This document shows, piece by piece, positions 40,591 through 50,483 of a DNA stretch of 64,000 bases. The translations under genes and the position numbers were made by a program. Under the pieces are notes generated by a model, which saw only the letters and a program-made list of their open reading frames with translations, ran no database searches and was not told the DNA's origin. Position 1 is the first letter of the stretch; every line of letters starts with the position of its first letter. The stretch lies in the NCBI RefSeq assembly GCF_003054225.1, contig NZ_QBKQ01000002.1:248001-312000 (forward strand), in the 5' to 3' direction. The stretch comes from Christiangramia gaetbulicola. Its GTDB lineage: Bacteria > Bacteroidota > Bacteroidia > Flavobacteriales > Flavobacteriaceae.

Positions 40591-42603
40591 ATGTACATGC
40601 TTTCAAGTAAACCCCAATTACCCCTAATACAATTTCAATCGGAAAGATTGACCAGGGCAGAATTAATAGATCTTTACTCTGCCATGCTGAAGCCCAGAAT
40701 GATAGAAGAAAAAATGCTAATTCTATTAAGGCAGGGTAAGATATCTAAGTGGTTTAGCGGGATCGGTCAGGAGGCGATTTCTGTTGGAGTAACTAAAGCA
40801 ATGCAGGAGGATGAATATATTCTACCTATGCATAGAAACCTTGGGGTTTTCACAAGTAGAAATATTCCATTAAATAGATTATTCGCTCAATGGCAGGGTA
40901 AAGCTTCAGGTTTTACCAAAGGCCGGGATCGTAGTTTTCATTTTGGCACCCAGGAATTCAAGATAATTGGGATGATCTCTCATTTGGGTCCACAAATGGG
41001 GGTTGCAGATGGAATTGCCCTGGCTCATAAACTCCAAGATGAGAAAAAAGTCACCGCTGTTTTCACTGGTGAAGGTGGAACAAGTGAGGGGGATTTTCAC
41101 GAGGCTTTGAATATAGCCTCCGTTTGGGACCTCCCGGTAATGTTTTGTATAGAAAATAATGGCTATGGCCTTTCAACACCTACTTCTGAACAATATCGCT
41201 GTAAGGATCTTGCAGACCGTGGTGCGGGTTACGGAATGGAATCACATATCATAGACGGTAATAATGTTACCGAAGTCTATTCTAAAGTATCTGAGATCGC
41301 TGAAAGTATTAGGACGAACCCAAGGCCGGTTTTGATAGAATTCAAGACTTTCAGAATGCGTGGTCATGAAGAAGCCAGTGGCACCAAATATGTTCCGCAG
41401 GAATTAATGGACGAATGGGAGGAGAAAGATCCCATCATTAATTTCGAGAATTACCTGTTAGAGAACGAAATTCTTGATACAGATAAAATACAGGATCTAA
41501 GAAATGATTTTCAAAAAGAGATCGACGAGAATTTACAGATCGCCTTTGCTGAAGATCCTGTTAGTTCAAGTTACAGTAAAGAATTAGAAGATGTATTTCA
41601 AGAGTTTAAATATGAGGAATTTACACATTTCAATGAAGTAGAAAACATACGTTTTGTAGATGCGATATCTCAGTCTCTAAAAGAATCTACTGCACGTCAT
41701 GAGAACCTCGTGCTCATGGGGCAGGATATTGCCGATTATGGTGGAGTTTTTAAGATCACCGAAGGTTTTACAGATAAATTCGGGAAGGATAGACTTCGAA
41801 ATACGCCAATTTGTGAATCTGCAGTTGTGGGAACGGCCATGGGACTTTCTATTAAGGGAATGAAGGCCATGGTGGAAATGCAATTCAGTGACTTTGTAAG
41901 TTCCGGGTTCAATCCAATAGTGAATTACCTCGCTAAAGTAAAATACAGATGGGATCAGAATGCCGATGTGGTAATTAGAATGCCCTGTGGTGGTGGAGTA
42001 GGTGCAGGCCCGTTCCATAGCCAGACTAATGAGGCATGGTTTACGAAAGTACCGGGCTTAAAAGTTATTTACCCGGCTTTTCCATATGATGCAAAAGGTT
42101 TACTAAATACGGCCTTCAACGATCCTAATCCGATTCTTTTCTTTGAACACAAAGCGTTATATAGAAGTGTGCGGCAGGATGTGCCTGTAGATTATTATAC
42201 TTTACCATTTGGTAAGGCTTCGAAAATAAAAGAAGGTACACAAGTTAGCATCATCACTTATGGCGCGGGAGTACACTGGGCTCTCGAGGTTCTTGAGGAA
42301 ATGGAATTAAGTGATGCCGAACTTCTTGACCTCAGAAGTCTTCAGCCTCTGGATATAGATAGTATTTGTGAGTCTGTCACAAAAACAGGAAAAGCGATTG
42401 TGCTAACCGAGGACTCCCTAACCGGTAGTTTTGCTTCGGAAATTGCCGCGATCATTTCTGAAAAATGCTTTGAAAGTCTGGATGCACCTGTAATGCGTGT
42501 TGGAAGTATGGAAACACCAATTCCATTCGCCAGAGAACTTGAAAAAGAGTACTTACCTAAAGATAGATTCAGGGAAAAACTTCAGGAATTAATAGAATAT
42601 TAA
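40591..42603 (+). CDS. 2-oxoacid dehydrogenase E1, fused alpha and beta subunits
   Basis: A thiamine-diphosphate E1 in which alpha (about 20-325) and beta (about 345-670) chains form one 670-residue polypeptide. The ThDP/Mg motif is in the alpha part: GEGGTSEGDFHEALN to ENNGYGLS. The beta part includes MGQDIADYGGVFKIT, ESAVVGTAMGLS and MPCGGGVGAGPFHSQ. Similarity is closest to branched-chain 2-oxoisovalerate E1, but pyruvate is possible. It decarboxylates the 2-oxoacid and passes the acyl group to an E2 lipoyl enzyme; no E2 or E3 gene is adjacent. ATG 40597 is an alternative start. Confidence 0.9.
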   Translation: MYMLSSKPQLPLIQFQSERLTRAELIDLYSAMLKPRMIEEKMLILLRQGKISKWFSGIGQEAISVGVTKAMQEDEYILPMHRNLGVFTSRNIPLNRLFAQWQGKASGFTKGRDRSFHFGTQEFKIIGMISHLGPQMGVADGIALAHKLQDEKKVTAVFTGEGGTSEGDFHEALNIASVWDLPVMFCIENNGYGLSTPTSEQYRCKDLADRGAGYGMESHIIDGNNVTEVYSKVSEIAESIRTNPRPVLIEFKTFRMRGHEEASGTKYVPQELMDEWEEKDPIINFENYLLENEILDTDKIQDLRNDFQKEIDENLQIAFAEDPVSSSYSKELEDVFQEFKYEEFTHFNEVENIRFVDAISQSLKESTARHENLVLMGQDIADYGGVFKITEGFTDKFGKDRLRNTPICESAVVGTAMGLSIKGMKAMVEMQFSDFVSSGFNPIVNYLAKVKYRWDQNADVVIRMPCGGGVGAGPFHSQTNEAWFTKVPGLKVIYPAFPYDAKGLLNTAFNDPNPILFFEHKALYRSVRQDVPVDYYTLPFGKASKIKEGTQVSIITYGAGVHWALEVLEEMELSDAELLDLRSLQPLDIDSICESVTKTGKAIVLTEDSLTGSFASEIAAIISEKCFESLDAPVMRVGSMETPIPFARELEKEYLPKDRFREKLQELIEY

Positions 42604-44211: not shown

Positions 44212-44240
44212 AAATCCCGGATTATTTCCGGGATTTTTTT
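44212..44240 (+). terminator. Terminator after the OmpA-family gene
   Basis: A perfect 9-bp stem, AAATCCCGG/CCGGGATTT (44212-44220 with 44228-44236), a 7-base loop and a T-run. It isolates the polyketide operon that begins 23 bases later. Confidence 0.92.
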
Positions 44241-44263: not shown

Positions 44264-45388
44264 GTGAAAAAGCCCCGGGTAATTATTATTGGTGGAGGAC
44301 TGGCAGGTTTAACTGCAGCTATAGACCTGTGTAAAAGAGGCATAGAAGTCATACTTTTCGAGAAAGATGAATATCCACATCACAAAGTATGTGGAGAATA
44401 TTTATCTGCTGAAATCCTGCCATATTATGATTCACTTGGAATTGACCTTGGGGAATTAAATGCTCCAGAAATCCACAAACTGGAGTATTCCTCGAATTCG
44501 GGTAAAACCATTACCTGTGATCTTCAAATGGGAGGTTTAGGTATAAGCCGTTATAATCTCGATCATTTTCTTTATAGATCGGCTCTAAATCTAGGTTGCA
44601 CGGTTATTACGGTAACGGTTACAGAAGTTAGCTTTAATAGAGAAAAATTCACGGTGCTAGCCAATGATGAAGAGTATATGTCAGATTTTGTGCTAGGTGC
44701 CTTCGGGAAACGATCTAACCTGGATAAAAAATTAGATCGTGATTTCTTCAAAAATCAGTCTGGCTGGCTAGCGGTCAAGGCTCATTATAAAGATTCAGAA
44801 CATCCAGAGGATCTGGTTTCACTGCATAACTTTAATGGAGGTTACTGCGGCTTGTCCCGCACCGAGATAAATACAGTCAATGTTTGCTACCTCGCCAGCT
44901 ACAGTAGTTTTAAAAAGCATAAAAATACCGAGACATTTAAAAATTCGGTGTTAATGAAAAACCCCAGGTTGAATGAGTTTTTTCAAAGATCTGAGCCTGT
45001 TTTTCAGAAAGATCTCAGCATAGCTCAGGTAAACTTTGACAGGAAATCTTTAATAGAGGATCATATAATGATGATCGGCGATGCCGCTGGGCTAATTCAT
45101 CCTCTCTGTGGAAATGGAATGGCCATGGCTATACATAGTGCTAAATTGGCCGTAGAATGCCTGGTAGATTTTTACAGCAGTAAGGAAACTGGCAGACAGA
45201 GCGTGGAAAAATTATACAGGAATAAATGGCAAAATAATTTCAATAACAGAATTAGATCTGGCAGAATTCTGCAGAAGGTTTTACTTAATGATACTTTATC
45301 TGAACTTTCTCAAAATATAATAGCTAAATTCCCCGGTATCATGCCTCAAATCATAAGGAGTACTCACGGAAAACCTATCTATGTCTAA
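44264..45388 (+). CDS. FAD-dependent oxidoreductase of the type III PKS cluster
   Basis: A 374-residue flavoprotein of the geranylgeranyl-reductase/aromatic-hydroxylase superfamily. It starts at GTG 44264, directly giving the Rossmann motif IIIGGGLAGLTAA (GxGxxG at 10-15). The family motif HHKVCGEYLS follows at about 39-48, and MIGDAAGLIHPLCGNGMAMA near residue 268 binds the FAD ribityl and phosphates. As the first gene of the operon it probably oxidises (hydroxylates or dehydrogenates) or reduces the polyketide product; in the Streptomyces srs pathway a flavoprotein hydroxylase plays the comparable part. It overlaps the methyltransferase gene by eight bases. Confidence 0.88.
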   Translation: MKKPRVIIIGGGLAGLTAAIDLCKRGIEVILFEKDEYPHHKVCGEYLSAEILPYYDSLGIDLGELNAPEIHKLEYSSNSGKTITCDLQMGGLGISRYNLDHFLYRSALNLGCTVITVTVTEVSFNREKFTVLANDEEYMSDFVLGAFGKRSNLDKKLDRDFFKNQSGWLAVKAHYKDSEHPEDLVSLHNFNGGYCGLSRTEINTVNVCYLASYSSFKKHKNTETFKNSVLMKNPRLNEFFQRSEPVFQKDLSIAQVNFDRKSLIEDHIMMIGDAAGLIHPLCGNGMAMAIHSAKLAVECLVDFYSSKETGRQSVEKLYRNKWQNNFNNRIRSGRILQKVLLNDTLSELSQNIIAKFPGIMPQIIRSTHGKPIYV

Positions 45389-46109
45389 GATTGATACTTC
45401 AAAACGTACAGATGAAAGCGAGATTATGGACGATTTCGATCTACAGGGTGAGGAATTGGGAAAAACGCTCAATGATCTTGACAATATAAATGCATGGTTA
45501 GGAGGAAATCAAATCACGATAAATGGAATAAAAAAATTACTTGAAGGAACTACTGAACAAAGCACTATAAAGATTGCAGATATTGGCTGTGGTAATGGGG
45601 CTATGCTCAGAAAACTTGCAAAATGGGGCAAAAGGAATAAATATAATCTCGAATTAACCGGGATAGATGCGAATACCCACGCCATTAAATTAGGCGAGGA
45701 TCTTTCCAGTGACTACTCCGAAATAGGTTTTAAAGTTCTTAATATCTTCAGTGATGACTTTAAAGCAATGGAATTCGATATCATACTATGCACGCTTACA
45801 TTGCATCATTTCAAAGACGAGCAGATCATTGATCTTCTTCGCCAGCTTTACGATCAATCTAATTTAGGAATTGTGATCAATGATCTTCATCGTAGTTCTG
45901 CGGCCTATATTTTATTTAAAGCATTTTGCGCGGTTTTCGTGAATAATGAGATTGCCAGGAAGGACGGATTAGTTTCGATCCTTAGAGGTTTTAAAAAAGA
46001 AGATATTATAAAATATAAGGACCAACTTCCCGGAGAAAAACATTTTATCAACTGGAAATGGGCTTTCAGGTATCAATGGATTATAGAAAAAGAAAAGGAT
46101 AACTTATGA
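45381..46109 (+). CDS. SAM-dependent methyltransferase of the type III PKS cluster
   Basis: A class I methyltransferase of 242 residues. The SAM-binding motif I is IADIGCGNGAML (about 62-73), followed by LTGIDANTHAIKLG and a motif IV-like FDIILCTLTLHHF, so the Rossmann core is intact. The N-terminal INAWLGGNQ resembles a stretch seen in related Bacteroidota enzymes. It probably methylates a phenolic oxygen or ring carbon of the product. Its start overlaps the oxidoreductase gene and its stop overlaps the PKS start by four bases, indicating translational coupling. Confidence 0.88.
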   Translation: MSKIDTSKRTDESEIMDDFDLQGEELGKTLNDLDNINAWLGGNQITINGIKKLLEGTTEQSTIKIADIGCGNGAMLRKLAKWGKRNKYNLELTGIDANTHAIKLGEDLSSDYSEIGFKVLNIFSDDFKAMEFDIILCTLTLHHFKDEQIIDLLRQLYDQSNLGIVINDLHRSSAAYILFKAFCAVFVNNEIARKDGLVSILRGFKKEDIIKYKDQLPGEKHFINWKWAFRYQWIIEKEKDNL

Positions 46110-47158
46110 GTGTAAAAATTGTCAGGGCCGAAAAAGAATTACCGCAATATTCTAGGGAAACCAAAGATATTTTACCCTTTGTAGAGGAGTGGCTTTCGGG
46201 ACAGGAGGAACGTTTCCGCAGAAAAATCCTCAAGATCTTTGAAAGTGCCGGTGTAGACAAAAGATATTCTATAATGTCGCCCGAAGAAGTTTTTACCGCG
46301 ACTTCCTTTGAGGATAAAAATGATATCTATGTTCGGGAAATTAAAAAACTTGGCAGCAATGTATTAAGAAAAGCCCTTGAAAATTCAGATTGGAATCCTG
46401 AATCACTTGATTATATCATAACCGTTAGTTGCACCGGAATTATGATCCCGTCTCTGGATGCTTATCTAATCAATGATTTGCAGCTTAAAAAAGATATTAC
46501 CCGGCTACCTGTAACCGAGATGGGCTGTGCAGCCGGAATTTCAGGGATGATCTATGCCTATAATTTTTTAAAGGCTAATCCTGGAAAAAGAGCGGCAGTG
46601 ATCGCCGTGGAAAGTCCTTCAGCCACTTTTCAATTAGAAGATTATAGTATGGCAAATATGGTGAGCGCAGCTATTTTTGGTGATGGTGCGGCCTGTGTTT
46701 TACTTTCTTCCGAAGAGAACATTAGCGGACCGAAGATCCTGGGGGAAGAAATGTATCATTTCTATAACGCCACACATTTAATGGGGTTTGATCTTAAGAA
46801 CAGTGGATTGCAAATGATTCTGGATCCTGAAGTTCCCGCTACCATTTCAGATCATTTTCCAGAGATCATCCATCCTTTTCTTAAAAGGCATAACAGTTCC
46901 ATTGAAAAAGTAGATCATCTGGTATTTCATCCCGGTGGAAGAAAAATTGTGCAGACGGTTTCTGATCTTTTTGGTAACTTAGGAAAGAATATTGACGATA
47001 CCCGGGAAGTTTTACGCCTGTATGGCAATATGAGCAGCGCGACAGTTCTATATGTTCTGGAGCGATTCCTAGAGAAGGATATTCCTGAAGGAGAACAGGG
47101 AATAATGCTCAGTTTTGGGCCTGGCTTTTCAGCACAACGAATTTTAATAGAATGGTAG
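46106..47158 (+). CDS. Type III polyketide synthase (chalcone/stilbene synthase family)
   Basis: A homodimeric iterative condensing enzyme that extends an acyl starter with malonyl units and cyclises the chain. It has 350 residues. The complete catalytic triad is readable: Cys141 in TEMGCAAGISG, His275 in FHPGGRK and Asn308 in YGNMSSATVLYVLE. CTGIMIPSLD and GDGAACVLL are further family marks. It is not possible to tell from sequence alone whether it makes resorcinols, pyrones or phloroglucinols. Its place in an operon with a carrier protein and fatty-acid-type enzymes favours a long-chain starter. It overlaps both neighbours. Confidence 0.94.
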   Translation: MSVKIVRAEKELPQYSRETKDILPFVEEWLSGQEERFRRKILKIFESAGVDKRYSIMSPEEVFTATSFEDKNDIYVREIKKLGSNVLRKALENSDWNPESLDYIITVSCTGIMIPSLDAYLINDLQLKKDITRLPVTEMGCAAGISGMIYAYNFLKANPGKRAAVIAVESPSATFQLEDYSMANMVSAAIFGDGAACVLLSSEENISGPKILGEEMYHFYNATHLMGFDLKNSGLQMILDPEVPATISDHFPEIIHPFLKRHNSSIEKVDHLVFHPGGRKIVQTVSDLFGNLGKNIDDTREVLRLYGNMSSATVLYVLERFLEKDIPEGEQGIMLSFGPGFSAQRILIEW

Positions 47159-47946
47159 CAGAATTTAAAGATCAGAATTACTGGGCGCTTATTCTTGGCG
47201 GAAGCAGCGGCCTGGGTTATGCCAGTGCTAAAAAACTGGCTAAGCATGGTATGAATATCATTATCATTCACCGGGATAGGAGAAGTGAGATTCCTGATAT
47301 TGAAGAAGCCTTTGATGAAATTCGGCAGGCTGGAGTTCAATTCGAAAGCTTTAATGCCGATGCCGTGAAAAAAGAAAGCAGAGAAGAACTTGTTGAAAAA
47401 ATCAAAGAGGTCCTTGGCGAAAAAGGCAGGATTAGGACCTTATTACATAGTATCGCCAAAGGAAATCTCAAGCCTATGATAGGCGAGGACAACCTTCTTG
47501 AAAATATCGACTTTCAATTGACCATAGATGCCATGGCTCTTAGTTTATACGACTGGACCCAGGCCATATATAAAAACGGATTATTTACTAAAGATGCACG
47601 GGTGATTTCTTTCACCAGCGATGGCAATAAAAAGGCCTGGAAAAATTACGCTGCTGTTTCAGCCGCGAAGGTAGTGTTGGAATCACTTACCAGGAGCATG
47701 GCTTTGGAATTCGCCCGCTTTGGTATAAGAGCCAACTGTATACAGGCAGGAATTACGGTAACCAGGTCATTTCAAATGATCCCGGGAAATGAAACCTTGC
47801 GGGTACATGCTTTAAAACACAATCCTTTTAAAAGACTAACGGTTCCAGATGATGTTGCAAACGCAGTTTACTTGTTAAGTAAGGATGAAGCGAGCTGGAT
47901 CACGGGGACAATCATTCCTGTTAATGGTGGAGAACATTTAATGTAA
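47152..47946 (+). CDS. FabL-like enoyl reductase (SDR)
   Basis: A 264-residue short-chain dehydrogenase. The nucleotide motif is GGSSGLG (16-22). The catalytic pair is Tyr166 and Lys173 (YAAVSAAK), spaced Y-x6-K as in enoyl-ACP reductases, not the Y-x3-K of ketoreductases; LLHSIA also matches FabI/FabL. The GxxxGxG glycine pattern points to FabL rather than FabI. I infer that it reduces enoyl intermediates on the cluster's carrier protein. It starts inside the PKS gene (seven-base overlap) and abuts the dehydratase gene. Confidence 0.85.
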   Translation: MVAEFKDQNYWALILGGSSGLGYASAKKLAKHGMNIIIIHRDRRSEIPDIEEAFDEIRQAGVQFESFNADAVKKESREELVEKIKEVLGEKGRIRTLLHSIAKGNLKPMIGEDNLLENIDFQLTIDAMALSLYDWTQAIYKNGLFTKDARVISFTSDGNKKAWKNYAAVSAAKVVLESLTRSMALEFARFGIRANCIQAGITVTRSFQMIPGNETLRVHALKHNPFKRLTVPDDVANAVYLLSKDEASWITGTIIPVNGGEHLM

Positions 47947-48387
47947 ATGCAGGAAATACTCGCACAATTACCGTATTCCAGTCCTTTTCTTTTTGTAGAC
48001 GAAATCCTGAATGTGGATTCCGATTCAATTGAAGGAAAGTTTACCTTTTCTCCAGATCTTGACTTCTATAAAGGACATTTTAAAGATAATCCGGTGACGC
48101 CGGGAGTTATTTTAACCGAATGTATGGCCCAGATAGGCGTGGTTGGTCTGGGAATATATCTGCTGAATCAGGAAAAAAAGGATGACCTAAAGGCTAAGAT
48201 CGCCATGACTTCTTCTGAAGTGGAATATCTTAAACCGGTATATCCTGGCGAAACTGTTACTGTGCATTCTGAAAAGCAGTATTACAGATTTGAAAAATTA
48301 AAGTGCCGCGTGAAAATGTTCGATTCTGAAAATAACCTGGTATGCAGAGGGGTTATCGCTGGAATGATATTAAAGGATAGATCTTAA
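47947..48387 (+). CDS. FabZ-like 3-hydroxyacyl-ACP dehydratase
   Basis: A 146-residue hot-dog protein. The N-terminal LPYSSPFLFVDEI matches FabZ, and the catalytic His44 (YKGHFKDNPVTPGV) and Glu58 (LTECMAQIG) are both in place. It should dehydrate 3-hydroxyacyl thioesters on the cluster's carrier protein. It begins directly after the reductase stop codon and ends directly before the ketosynthase ATG with no spacer, so all three are translated from one message. Confidence 0.9.
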   Translation: MQEILAQLPYSSPFLFVDEILNVDSDSIEGKFTFSPDLDFYKGHFKDNPVTPGVILTECMAQIGVVGLGIYLLNQEKKDDLKAKIAMTSSEVEYLKPVYPGETVTVHSEKQYYRFEKLKCRVKMFDSENNLVCRGVIAGMILKDRS

Positions 48388-49662
48388 ATGAAAAAAAGGG
48401 TTGTAGTTACCGGGATGGGAGTTGCCGCACCTAATGCGGTAGGACTCGATAATTTCAATTCTGCAATTCAGGAAATGAAAAGCGGAATCAGGTTCTTTCC
48501 CGAGCTTAGAGATCTTAAATTCAGTTGCCAGATAGGAGGGAAGCCTGAAATTTCTGAAGAATTACTACAGCAATACTTTACTCCACTACAACTCCGAGGC
48601 CTAAAAAGCAGTGGAATTGTTTACGGGGTGATCTCGGGAACAGATGCCTGGAAGGATGCCGGACTTGAAATTACAGAGAACGGTTCCCCAGACTGGGATT
48701 CCGGGATCATATTTGGAACAGGGATTTTAGGTGTTGATAAATTCAGGGAGGCAATTCAATTGATTGATGCTGGCAAGACCAGAAGATTGGGCAGCACCAG
48801 CGTGGTACAGACCATGGCCAGTGGGATAAGCGCATATCTTGGTGGAATACTGGGATGTGGAAACCAGGTAACCACTAATTCTTCGGCCTGCACTACAGGA
48901 ACCGAAGCCTTATTGATGGGATTTGAACGTATACAAAACGGAAAAGCAAAACGTATGCTGGTGGGAAGCTGCAGCGATCATGGGCCTTACGTCTGGGGAG
49001 GTTTTGATGCCATGCGAATTTTACCGAGTAAATATAATGAGGAACCCACCAAAGCCTCACGACCATTAAGCAACCAGGCTTCAGGGTTTGTTCCGGGTAG
49101 TGGAGCAGGAGCTCTTATACTTGAGGATCTTGATTCGGCTATTGCCAGAGGAGCTAGGATTTATTGCGAGGTTTTAGGAGGAGAAGTAAATAGCGGAGGC
49201 CAAAGAGGAGAAGGCAGTATGACCGCGGCGAATAATGAAGCGGTAACCAGGTGCATCACGGCGGCATTAAAGAACTCTAATGTTGAGACCTCAGAGATCG
49301 ATGCTATAAATGGTCATTTAACAGCCACCTCCCGAGATTCTGTTGAGATCGAGAACTGGACTAGGGCATTAAATAGAAAAGCTGAGGATTTTCCTTATAT
49401 CAATTCTCTAAAAGGAATGACCGGGCATTGCTTAAGCGCTTCGGGTTCTATTGAGTGTGTAGCTTCTGTGCTGCAGATCTATAATGAGTATATTTTCGGG
49501 AATCTGAATTGTGAAGAAATTCATCCTGAAATTAAAGAGCTTATCCATCAAGATAGAATACCAACGGAAAAAATCACGAAAAAAATTAATATTTTGGCTA
49601 AGGCCAGTTTTGGTTTCGGCGATATAAATGCCGTTATCATTCTTAAAAAATATCCTGCTTAA
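48388..49662 (+). CDS. FabF-like beta-ketoacyl-ACP synthase
   Basis: A 424-residue condensing enzyme of the KAS I/II type. The Cys-His-His triad is present: Cys168 in TNSSACTTGTEA, His310 in NGHLTATSRDSVE and His347 in KGMTGHCLSASG, with Lys342. The second motif reads NGHLTAT where housekeeping enzymes have NAHGTST, so it is a divergent paralogue, as expected of a pathway-specific enzyme. It should elongate acyl chains on the next gene's carrier protein by decarboxylating malonyl-ACP. No chain-length-factor partner is present. Confidence 0.92.
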   Translation: MKKRVVVTGMGVAAPNAVGLDNFNSAIQEMKSGIRFFPELRDLKFSCQIGGKPEISEELLQQYFTPLQLRGLKSSGIVYGVISGTDAWKDAGLEITENGSPDWDSGIIFGTGILGVDKFREAIQLIDAGKTRRLGSTSVVQTMASGISAYLGGILGCGNQVTTNSSACTTGTEALLMGFERIQNGKAKRMLVGSCSDHGPYVWGGFDAMRILPSKYNEEPTKASRPLSNQASGFVPGSGAGALILEDLDSAIARGARIYCEVLGGEVNSGGQRGEGSMTAANNEAVTRCITAALKNSNVETSEIDAINGHLTATSRDSVEIENWTRALNRKAEDFPYINSLKGMTGHCLSASGSIECVASVLQIYNEYIFGNLNCEEIHPEIKELIHQDRIPTEKITKKINILAKASFGFGDINAVIILKKYPA

Positions 49663-49671
49663 AAGAAAACT

Positions 49672-49923
49672 ATGAGTGAAAAAGAAATTTTAACCCGTCT
49701 TAAAACGATCGTGAAACCTTACGTACAAAGGATGGAAGGATTAAATGACTTTCAGGAGAATACAGATTTCCTGAATGATCTCGAGATAAATTCTGCCAAT
49801 CTGGTAGATGTGGTTCTTGATGTTGAAGATGAGTTCAATATAGAGATCGATAATGACTCTATGGAAGGCATGCTTACCGTGGGTGACGCAAAATCCATTA
49901 TTCAGCGAAAACTTAGCAATTAG
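49672..49923 (+). CDS. Acyl carrier protein of the polyketide cluster
   Basis: An 83-residue acidic helical protein. The attachment Ser is residue 41 in NDLEINSANLVDVV; the classic DSL is replaced by NSA, with the Leu three positions on. VEDEFNIEIDND forms the usual acidic recognition helix. It carries the growing acyl chain for the KS, DH and ER of this operon and may present it to the type III PKS. Its stop overlaps the GTG start of the phosphopantetheinyl transferase gene, which is its likely activator. Confidence 0.9.
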   Translation: MSEKEILTRLKTIVKPYVQRMEGLNDFQENTDFLNDLEINSANLVDVVLDVEDEFNIEIDNDSMEGMLTVGDAKSIIQRKLSN

Positions 49924-50483
49924 TGATAGGTAATGATATCATAGATCTTGAAATTGCCAGAGCCGAAAGGAAATCTGAAAATATAAGATATATGAGCAAG
50001 GTATTCTCTGAAGAGGAGATGAACCAAATTATCAATTCCAATGATCCTGAGCTCTGTCTCTGGAAGCTCTGGGCAATGAAGGAAACCGCTTATAAAGCTC
50101 ACCAGAGAAGTTTTGATCTTCCCCGAAAATTGAACCCAAAAGCTTTTAGCTGTGTTCTTGATATTTCAAATTCCGGAGGAAAGGTTAGCATAGATGATTC
50201 GGTCTATGATATCGAATTGAACATCACCTCAGGTTATCTGCACGCTACCAGTTCTTCTGAAAAAGTTTCAAAAAATGTTTTTCAGATAAATAAAGATTCA
50301 GCTTTCGACCTTATAACGGTTATCACTGATAATTACCATTTTACGACGGAAGATTTTAGTATCAAAAAAAATGCTCACGGAATACCTTCGATAGTGGCTG
50401 AAGACCATTCCATAGAAATTCCTTTTTCCTTGAGCCATCATGGAAAATTCACCGCCTTCGCCATTCCGTTAATTAACTCCTAA
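49923..50483 (+). CDS. 4'-phosphopantetheinyl transferase
   Basis: Attaches the phosphopantetheine arm of CoA to a carrier protein Ser. It has 186 residues and starts at GTG 49923, which overlaps the ACP stop by one base; no ATG gives the N-terminal motif. GNDIIDLE (3-10) holds the first metal-binding Asp residues, and WAMKETAYKAH (50-60) is the WxxKEAxxK motif. Last gene of the eight-gene run. Its presence suggests the cluster's unusual carrier protein needs its own activating enzyme. Confidence 0.9.
   Translation: MIGNDIIDLEIARAERKSENIRYMSKVFSEEEMNQIINSNDPELCLWKLWAMKETAYKAHQRSFDLPRKLNPKAFSCVLDISNSGGKVSIDDSVYDIELNITSGYLHATSSSEKVSKNVFQINKDSAFDLITVITDNYHFTTEDFSIKKNAHGIPSIVAEDHSIEIPFSLSHHGKFTAFAIPLINS

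Follow-up and report, generated by a model that had tools for sequence, protein, structure and literature searches.

The window analyzed here, a 64,000-nucleotide stretch of DNA assigned to a marine, Christiangramia-like member of the Flavobacteriaceae, contains an operon of eight genes (positions 44264-50483, + strand) in which a flavin adenine dinucleotide (FAD)-dependent oxidoreductase, a methyltransferase (MT) and a type III polyketide synthase (PKS) are followed by an enoyl-acyl carrier protein reductase (ER), a dehydratase (DH), a ketosynthase (KS), an acyl carrier protein (ACP) and a 4'-phosphopantetheinyl transferase (PPT). We establish the identities of these genes, the integrity of their active sites, the conservation of their order and the co-occurrence of the two modules, that is, the FAD-MT-PKS core and the type II fatty-acyl line. 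On balance, the operon probably makes a phenolic or pyrone lipid from an acyl chain of its own type II line, by the mechanism proposed below.

Gene content of the operon

The operon consists of the following genes:

44264-45388, +, FAD-dependent oxidoreductase of the geranylgeranyl (GG) reductase/phenol hydroxylase/halogenase superfamily, a probable ring oxidase (GTG start; FAD_binding_3/GG-reductase superfamily)
45381-46109, +, class I S-adenosylmethionine-dependent MT, PRK06202-like (NF004851, 2.3e-38, below cut-off; Pfam Methyltransf_25)
46106-47158, +, type III PKS (chalcone/stilbene synthase N and C domains; triad Cys141-His275-Asn308; Phe228 and Met237 in the inferred cyclization pocket)
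47152-47946, +, FabL-like ER with the short-chain dehydrogenase/reductase (SDR) fold and Tyr-x6-Lys (NF005975 FabL, 8.6e-43, score 146 below the cut-off of 328)
47947-48387, +, FabZ-like 3-hydroxyacyl-ACP DH, FabA/FabZ hotdog (His44, Glu58)
48388-49662, +, FabF-like KS (TIGR03150, 1.5e-76, below cut-off; Cys168, His310, Lys342, His347)
49672-49923, +, dedicated ACP (PF00550, 7.1e-5; attachment site Ser41)
49923-50483, +, PPT of the ACPS superfamily (GTG start; PF01648, 5.1e-10)

A check of the open reading frames found all eight genes where a first-pass annotation, made from the sequence alone, had placed them. The overlaps amount to 8 bases between FAD and MT, 4 between MT and PKS, 7 between PKS and ER, and 1 between ACP and PPT; there is no gap at ER/DH or at DH/KS, and 9 bases separate KS from ACP. 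The measured junctions (1, 4, 7 and 8; 0, 0 and 9) match the overlaps of 1-8 bases and gaps of 0-9 bases claimed in that annotation for eight genes on this strand, and the family names that it gave to all eight proteins agree with NCBIfam and Pfam scans. Because the best NCBIfam match of each protein scores below the curated cut-off (for example, 258 versus 494 bits for KS and 146 versus 328 for ER), we consider all eight to be diverged members of their families.

Conservation of gene order and active sites

The gene-order set comprised 199 loci, 185 of them with a PKS of at least 55% identity; after eight loci with identical PKS DNA were dropped, 177 distinct loci remained, the window excluded. 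Of 119 relatives, 80 were kept, and 30 short loci (L001-L030) were left out of the gene-order analysis. A lack of conserved order in relatives had been set beforehand as a refuting condition, and it does not hold: FAD-MT-PKS is found in 177/177 distinct loci, and where the sequence extends 3 kb or more beyond PKS (170 loci), KS follows in 164. BLAST clustering yielded counts of 164 for KS, 163 for DH, 150 for ACP, 137 for ER and 82 for PPT; profiles built from the same 177 loci, the counts of which we prefer, detected DH in 167, KS in 166, ACP in 163, ER in 135 and PPT in 83.

The conserved order is FAD-MT-PKS-(ER)-DH-KS-ACP-(PPT), with ER and PPT optional. Median gaps between neighbors along FAD-MT-PKS-ER-DH-KS-ACP-PPT range from -4 to 5 bases, and the median for PKS-DH is 83 where ER is missing. 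By profile, a full KS goes undetected in eleven loci, of which four end within 1.6 kb of PKS, one (L199) shows neither DH nor KS over 2.6 kb, and six continue for at least 7.9 kb. The recurrence of this order is more than chance. Distance matrices of seven of the proteins agree with each other (r 0.41 to 0.81, the largest of 200 shuffles per pair being at most 0.26), which fits joint inheritance without distinguishing function from common descent.

In alignments of up to 178 rows, that is, the 177 loci and the window, the catalytic residues are conserved almost without exception. The PKS triad (C141, H275, N308) is kept in 178/178 rows, as are D67 and G69 of MT; DH retains both His44 and Glu58 in 164/164 rows, KS retains Cys168, His310, Lys342 and His347 in 165/165, and ACP retains Ser41 in 151/151. 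Tyr-x6-Lys is the catalytic pair of FabL/FabI-type enoyl-ACP reductases; in ER, Y166 is present in 136/138 rows and K173 in 138/138, and the best solved chain for this protein is 3oic, an enoyl-ACP reductase. AlphaFold models of FAD and PKS are confident (pLDDT 90.0 and 91.6, respectively). Structural comparison of the FAD model ranks flavin halogenases first among its fold neighbors, which also include phenol hydroxylases and a GG reductase; WxWxI(P), the motif of flavin-dependent halogenases, occurs in 0/178 FAD rows.

Distribution and co-occurrence of the two modules

Of 299 Flavobacteriaceae genomes, 104 contain the PKS; its identity is at least 59% in 103 of these and only 34% in the remaining one (G072). 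In a draw from the entire phylum, 112 of 247 genomes match the PKS, 23 at 68% identity or more and the other 89 at 36% at most. Among the named genera that carry the close type are Christiangramia, Salegentibacter, Arenibacter, Aquimarina, Flavobacterium, Kaistella, Polaribacter, Chitinophaga, Pedobacter and Leeuwenhoekiella.

The KS, at E <=1e-115, was detected in 101 of the 299 family genomes, and the PKS is present in 101/101; PKS-carrying genomes without KS are G138 (99% complete) and G293 (76% complete). Four genomes were checked for the fate of DH-KS-ACP outside the operon, and in three of them the genes form a group at another site: in G190 and G144, KS is far from PKS and still accompanied by DH and ACP, and in G276 the group, together with PPT, sits within a different contig. 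In G066, contig ends simply cut the operon. By profile, 14 more remote PKS loci from the phylum contain no KS, DH or ACP, and two of them contain MT and FAD, so the pairing of the acyl line with the PKS looks specific to this PKS clade. Some copies look disrupted, with one or two in-frame stops in KS (G102, G076, G205) or a PKS match in two pieces (G150), which may reflect decay or sequencing error.

The host genome contains three PF00550 matches and two PF01648 matches, the operon's own included. Its best other KS is FabF-like, 34% identical to the operon KS, and adjoins another ACP. A further KS/ACP locus lies ~18-21 kb before the window, and the segment of the host contig at 220000-239500, ending 8.5 kb before the window, yields matches to two KS, an ACP, an SDR, a DH-like protein and an MMPL-like protein; this is probably a flexirubin or aryl-polyene cluster.

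A parallel case on plasmids

Nine plasmid records match the FAD protein, and eight were examined. One Novosphingobium plasmid is annotated with ACP-KS-type III PKS-FAD monooxygenase and a methyltransferase gene on the opposite strand, and profiles detect the same set in 4/4 Novosphingobium plasmids examined (L259, L262, L264, L265). Because the Novosphingobium KS scores weaker against the Bacteroidota KS profile (3.5e-27 to 1.3e-33) than the host genome's own FabF-like KS (6.2e-74), the comparison suggests that ACP-KS was recruited to a type III PKS separately in Novosphingobium. By profile, Mesorhizobium and Paracoccus plasmids carry only PKS-MT-FAD; in one Mesorhizobium plasmid (L261), the trio is followed by a gene of the cyclopropane-fatty-acyl-phospholipid synthase family, another hint of lipid chemistry. 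The best-ranked plasmid PKS, from Stenotrophomonas, adjoins an isoprenylcysteine-type methyltransferase, with no acyl line. Bernardetia and Hymenobacter plasmids with FAD relatives have no PKS within 5 kb, and the FAD family is therefore not tied to PKSs everywhere.

Proposed pathway and alternative readings

In the pathway that we favor, PPT would activate the dedicated ACP, on which the FabF-like KS, the FabZ-like DH and, where present, the FabL-like ER would assemble or elongate a particular acyl chain, with ketoreductase, malonyl transfer and primer borrowed from primary fatty-acid synthesis. The type III PKS would receive this chain, directly from ACP or after transfer, add malonyl-coenzyme A (CoA) units and cyclize the product to an alkylresorcinol or alkylpyrone, and MT and the FAD enzyme would methylate and oxidize the head group, possibly yielding a methoxyphenol or quinone. 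The borrowing, the acyl hand-off, the types of chain and ring, and the tailoring chemistry are what we infer here. Structural comparison ranks Pks11 and then CylI nearest to the PKS model, ahead of THNS (the THN synthase RppA) and PKS18, and a single-sequence search also places Pks11 first; Pks11 and CylI make fatty-acyl pyrones and resorcinols. The linkage, the intact active sites and a further pairing of ACP-KS with a type III PKS, in Novosphingobium, support the proposal of the first-pass annotation that a discrete type II line would feed the PKS; the line does not appear to be self-sufficient, and ER is optional.

Several observations weigh against this pathway. Linkage is no proof of acyl transfer. 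Family scans of the eight operon proteins identify no ketoreductase, malonyl transferase or priming ketosynthase III (KSIII), which must therefore be supplied from elsewhere, and no acyltransferase or acyl-activating enzyme either. The six loci with at least 7.9 kb after PKS, three of them from Leeuwenhoekiella, have no KS there, and G138, the source of one of the six, has none in its genome at E 1e-115, a lack that, given the completeness, may be real. ER is missing in 42 of 177 loci: by profile, it is found in 0/19 named Flavobacterium loci, one of which ends 74 bases past PKS, and, by clustering, it is missing in 4/4 Pedobacter, 3/3 Polaribacter and 3/3 Arenibacter. The operon lacks PPT in 94 loci, of which 87 extend at least 4 kb past PKS, and an operon-borne PPT is therefore no rule. 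In a profile search of the PKS, THNS, a small-molecule enzyme, comes out slightly ahead of Pks11 (282 versus 274 bits). Phe228, present in all 178 PKS rows, has an aromatic counterpart both in Pks11, a pyrone synthase, and in THNS, so we rejected a reading of the ring type from this residue alone; ArsB and ArsC were not among the matches and alignments listed, and Phe228 was matched to their position by spacing. Finally, the proposed tailoring chemistry is a guess because, according to the available parts of a study of planctomycete operons (PMC10896814), no firm role emerged for the FAD enzyme, and the methyltransferase that was assayed introduced a C-methyl group.

Some of these observations would be accommodated if the PKS used an ordinary long-chain acyl-CoA or acyl-ACP, and DH-KS-ACP supplied another acyl part for later attachment to the ring, either in ester linkage or as a second side chain. 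FAD-MT-PKS-ER without DH-KS-ACP alongside in the six loci would fit this arrangement, as would the occurrence of the core alone elsewhere (PKS-MT-FAD in L062, L064, Mesorhizobium and Paracoccus). However, neither an acyltransferase nor a KSIII/DarB-like condensing gene is among the eight, and two of the six loci (G190 and G144), as well as G276, retain DH-KS-ACP elsewhere in the genome (the three Leeuwenhoekiella loci lie outside the genome-wide check); we regard this alternative as unlikely.

The lead of THNS in the profile search, together with the SCTG motif containing Cys109, which is found in 177/178 PKS rows (one gap) and is common to the PKS clade and THNS in the alignments, would agree with a PKS that is primed with malonyl or a small CoA starter and forms a naphthol or a small aromatic compound, to be converted by MT and FAD to a quinone pigment, with the acyl line serving some other purpose. 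Such a role is similarly improbable in our view, given that the fatty-acyl enzymes Pks11 and CylI come first by structure, that Pks11 comes first by single sequence, and that KS and PKS co-occur across genomes.

Less likely still, the line could make a polyunsaturated chain, as for flexirubin and aryl polyenes, to which the PKS would add a terminal aromatic ring, with ER-containing operons making a saturated version, which would account for the loci and genera without ER listed above, but the operon contains no ketoreductase and ER could come in trans.

Returning to the pathway from ACP-bound chain to phenolic or pyrone lipid, a wider version can be put forward tentatively, with rather less confidence: a private type II line of KS, DH, ACP, often ER and sometimes PPT could, across the Bacteroidota, prime one type III PKS to produce a distinct class of methylated, oxidized phenolic lipids, perhaps a membrane quinone or antioxidant, the saturation of which would be set by ER. 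If so, the ACP-KS/type III PKS pairing arose at least twice, in Bacteroidota and in Novosphingobium.

Neighboring genes

The upstream boundary of the operon is marked by one feature, identified by a pattern scan only:

44212-44236, +, terminator-like hairpin after the upstream OmpA-like gene

The hairpin pattern occurs at 11 sites in the surrounding region versus 5.5 expected. Further upstream, at 40591-42603 of the window, lies a gene resembling a fusion of the E1 component of branched-chain ketoacid dehydrogenase (BCKDH); this gene precedes the operon in 94 of 177 loci. We considered and rejected BCKDH E1 as the starter supply: a lipoprotein gene and the OmpA-like gene intervene, the gene is not clustered upstream in the remaining loci, and we treat the association as one of neighborhood only.

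Downstream of the operon, nine loci (L040, L108, L113, L120, L131, L136, L149, L179, L185) encode a large membrane protein of ~750 residues that we take to be RND/MMPL-like and that is possibly a lipid exporter. A conserved membrane protein of ~145 residues, likewise labeled presumptively from its sequence type, is encoded downstream in 28 loci (e.g., L048, L070, L071, L128), including loci of Flagellimonas and Euzebyella that have no clustered PPT. Both genes were set aside as evidence because they are too rare.

Comparison with known systems

In the Streptomyces srsABC cluster, a type III PKS, a methyltransferase and a flavoprotein hydroxylase are grouped as in the operon described here; srsABC is not known to have a dedicated acyl line.

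Type III PKS clusters account for 10.74% of the biosynthetic clusters of Flavobacteriaceae in a survey of 2,680 genomes (PMC10734526) and for 9% in a second survey (PMC7440613), and the accessible parts of these surveys name no product for them. The first-pass annotation knew of no characterized product for this layout, and we found none either: among the papers listed in searches of open-license PMC full texts, and within their available portions (including those of PMC9323603, PMC9859067 and PMC7587189), none describes the layout or its product, although subscription papers could. The PKS family carried by approximately one-third of the sampled family genomes (104/299) now gains a defined, testable layout, namely, a private acyl line that would feed a type III PKS. 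If this is right, the lipid class would be made by many environmental Bacteroidota.

By gene content, the three-gene core resembles the hierridin genes hidABC and the planctomycete operons, which combine a type III PKS, a methyltransferase and an oxidoreductase (FAD-dependent in planctomycetes) and the PKSs of which produce alkylresorcinols (PMC8086630, PMC10896814). The order differs, FAD-MT-PKS here versus MT-oxidoreductase-PKS in those operons, and the ER-DH-KS-ACP-PPT line that follows here is not mentioned for them in the available excerpts.

The acyl line has its own precedents, again as far as the available parts of the sources describe them. In the Azotobacter ars system, the fatty acid synthase ArsA hands acyl chains to ArsB and ArsC, with transfer from ACP to PKS demonstrated (PMC6274091); ars thus resembles our operon in encoding a dedicated fatty-acyl machine with a type III PKS, but the transfer shown there is presumed here, and ArsA is a type I multidomain synthase, whereas our operon encodes only discrete type II proteins and no type I fatty acid synthase. 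Germicidin synthase (GCS) is also a type III PKS able to take an acyl chain from ACP, with short to medium starters, and no dedicated line is mentioned for it (PMC6274091). Cylindrocyclophane biosynthesis involves a free-standing ACP (CylB) and the resorcinol-forming type III PKS CylI, the second-closest fold to the PKS described here, which can use ACP-bound chains (PMC8086630); the Cyl system further includes an acyl-activating enzyme and two type I PKSs, and no such domain is found among our eight proteins. The FAD-MT-PKS core is therefore known in kind, and the private type II line is the unfamiliar part of this operon.

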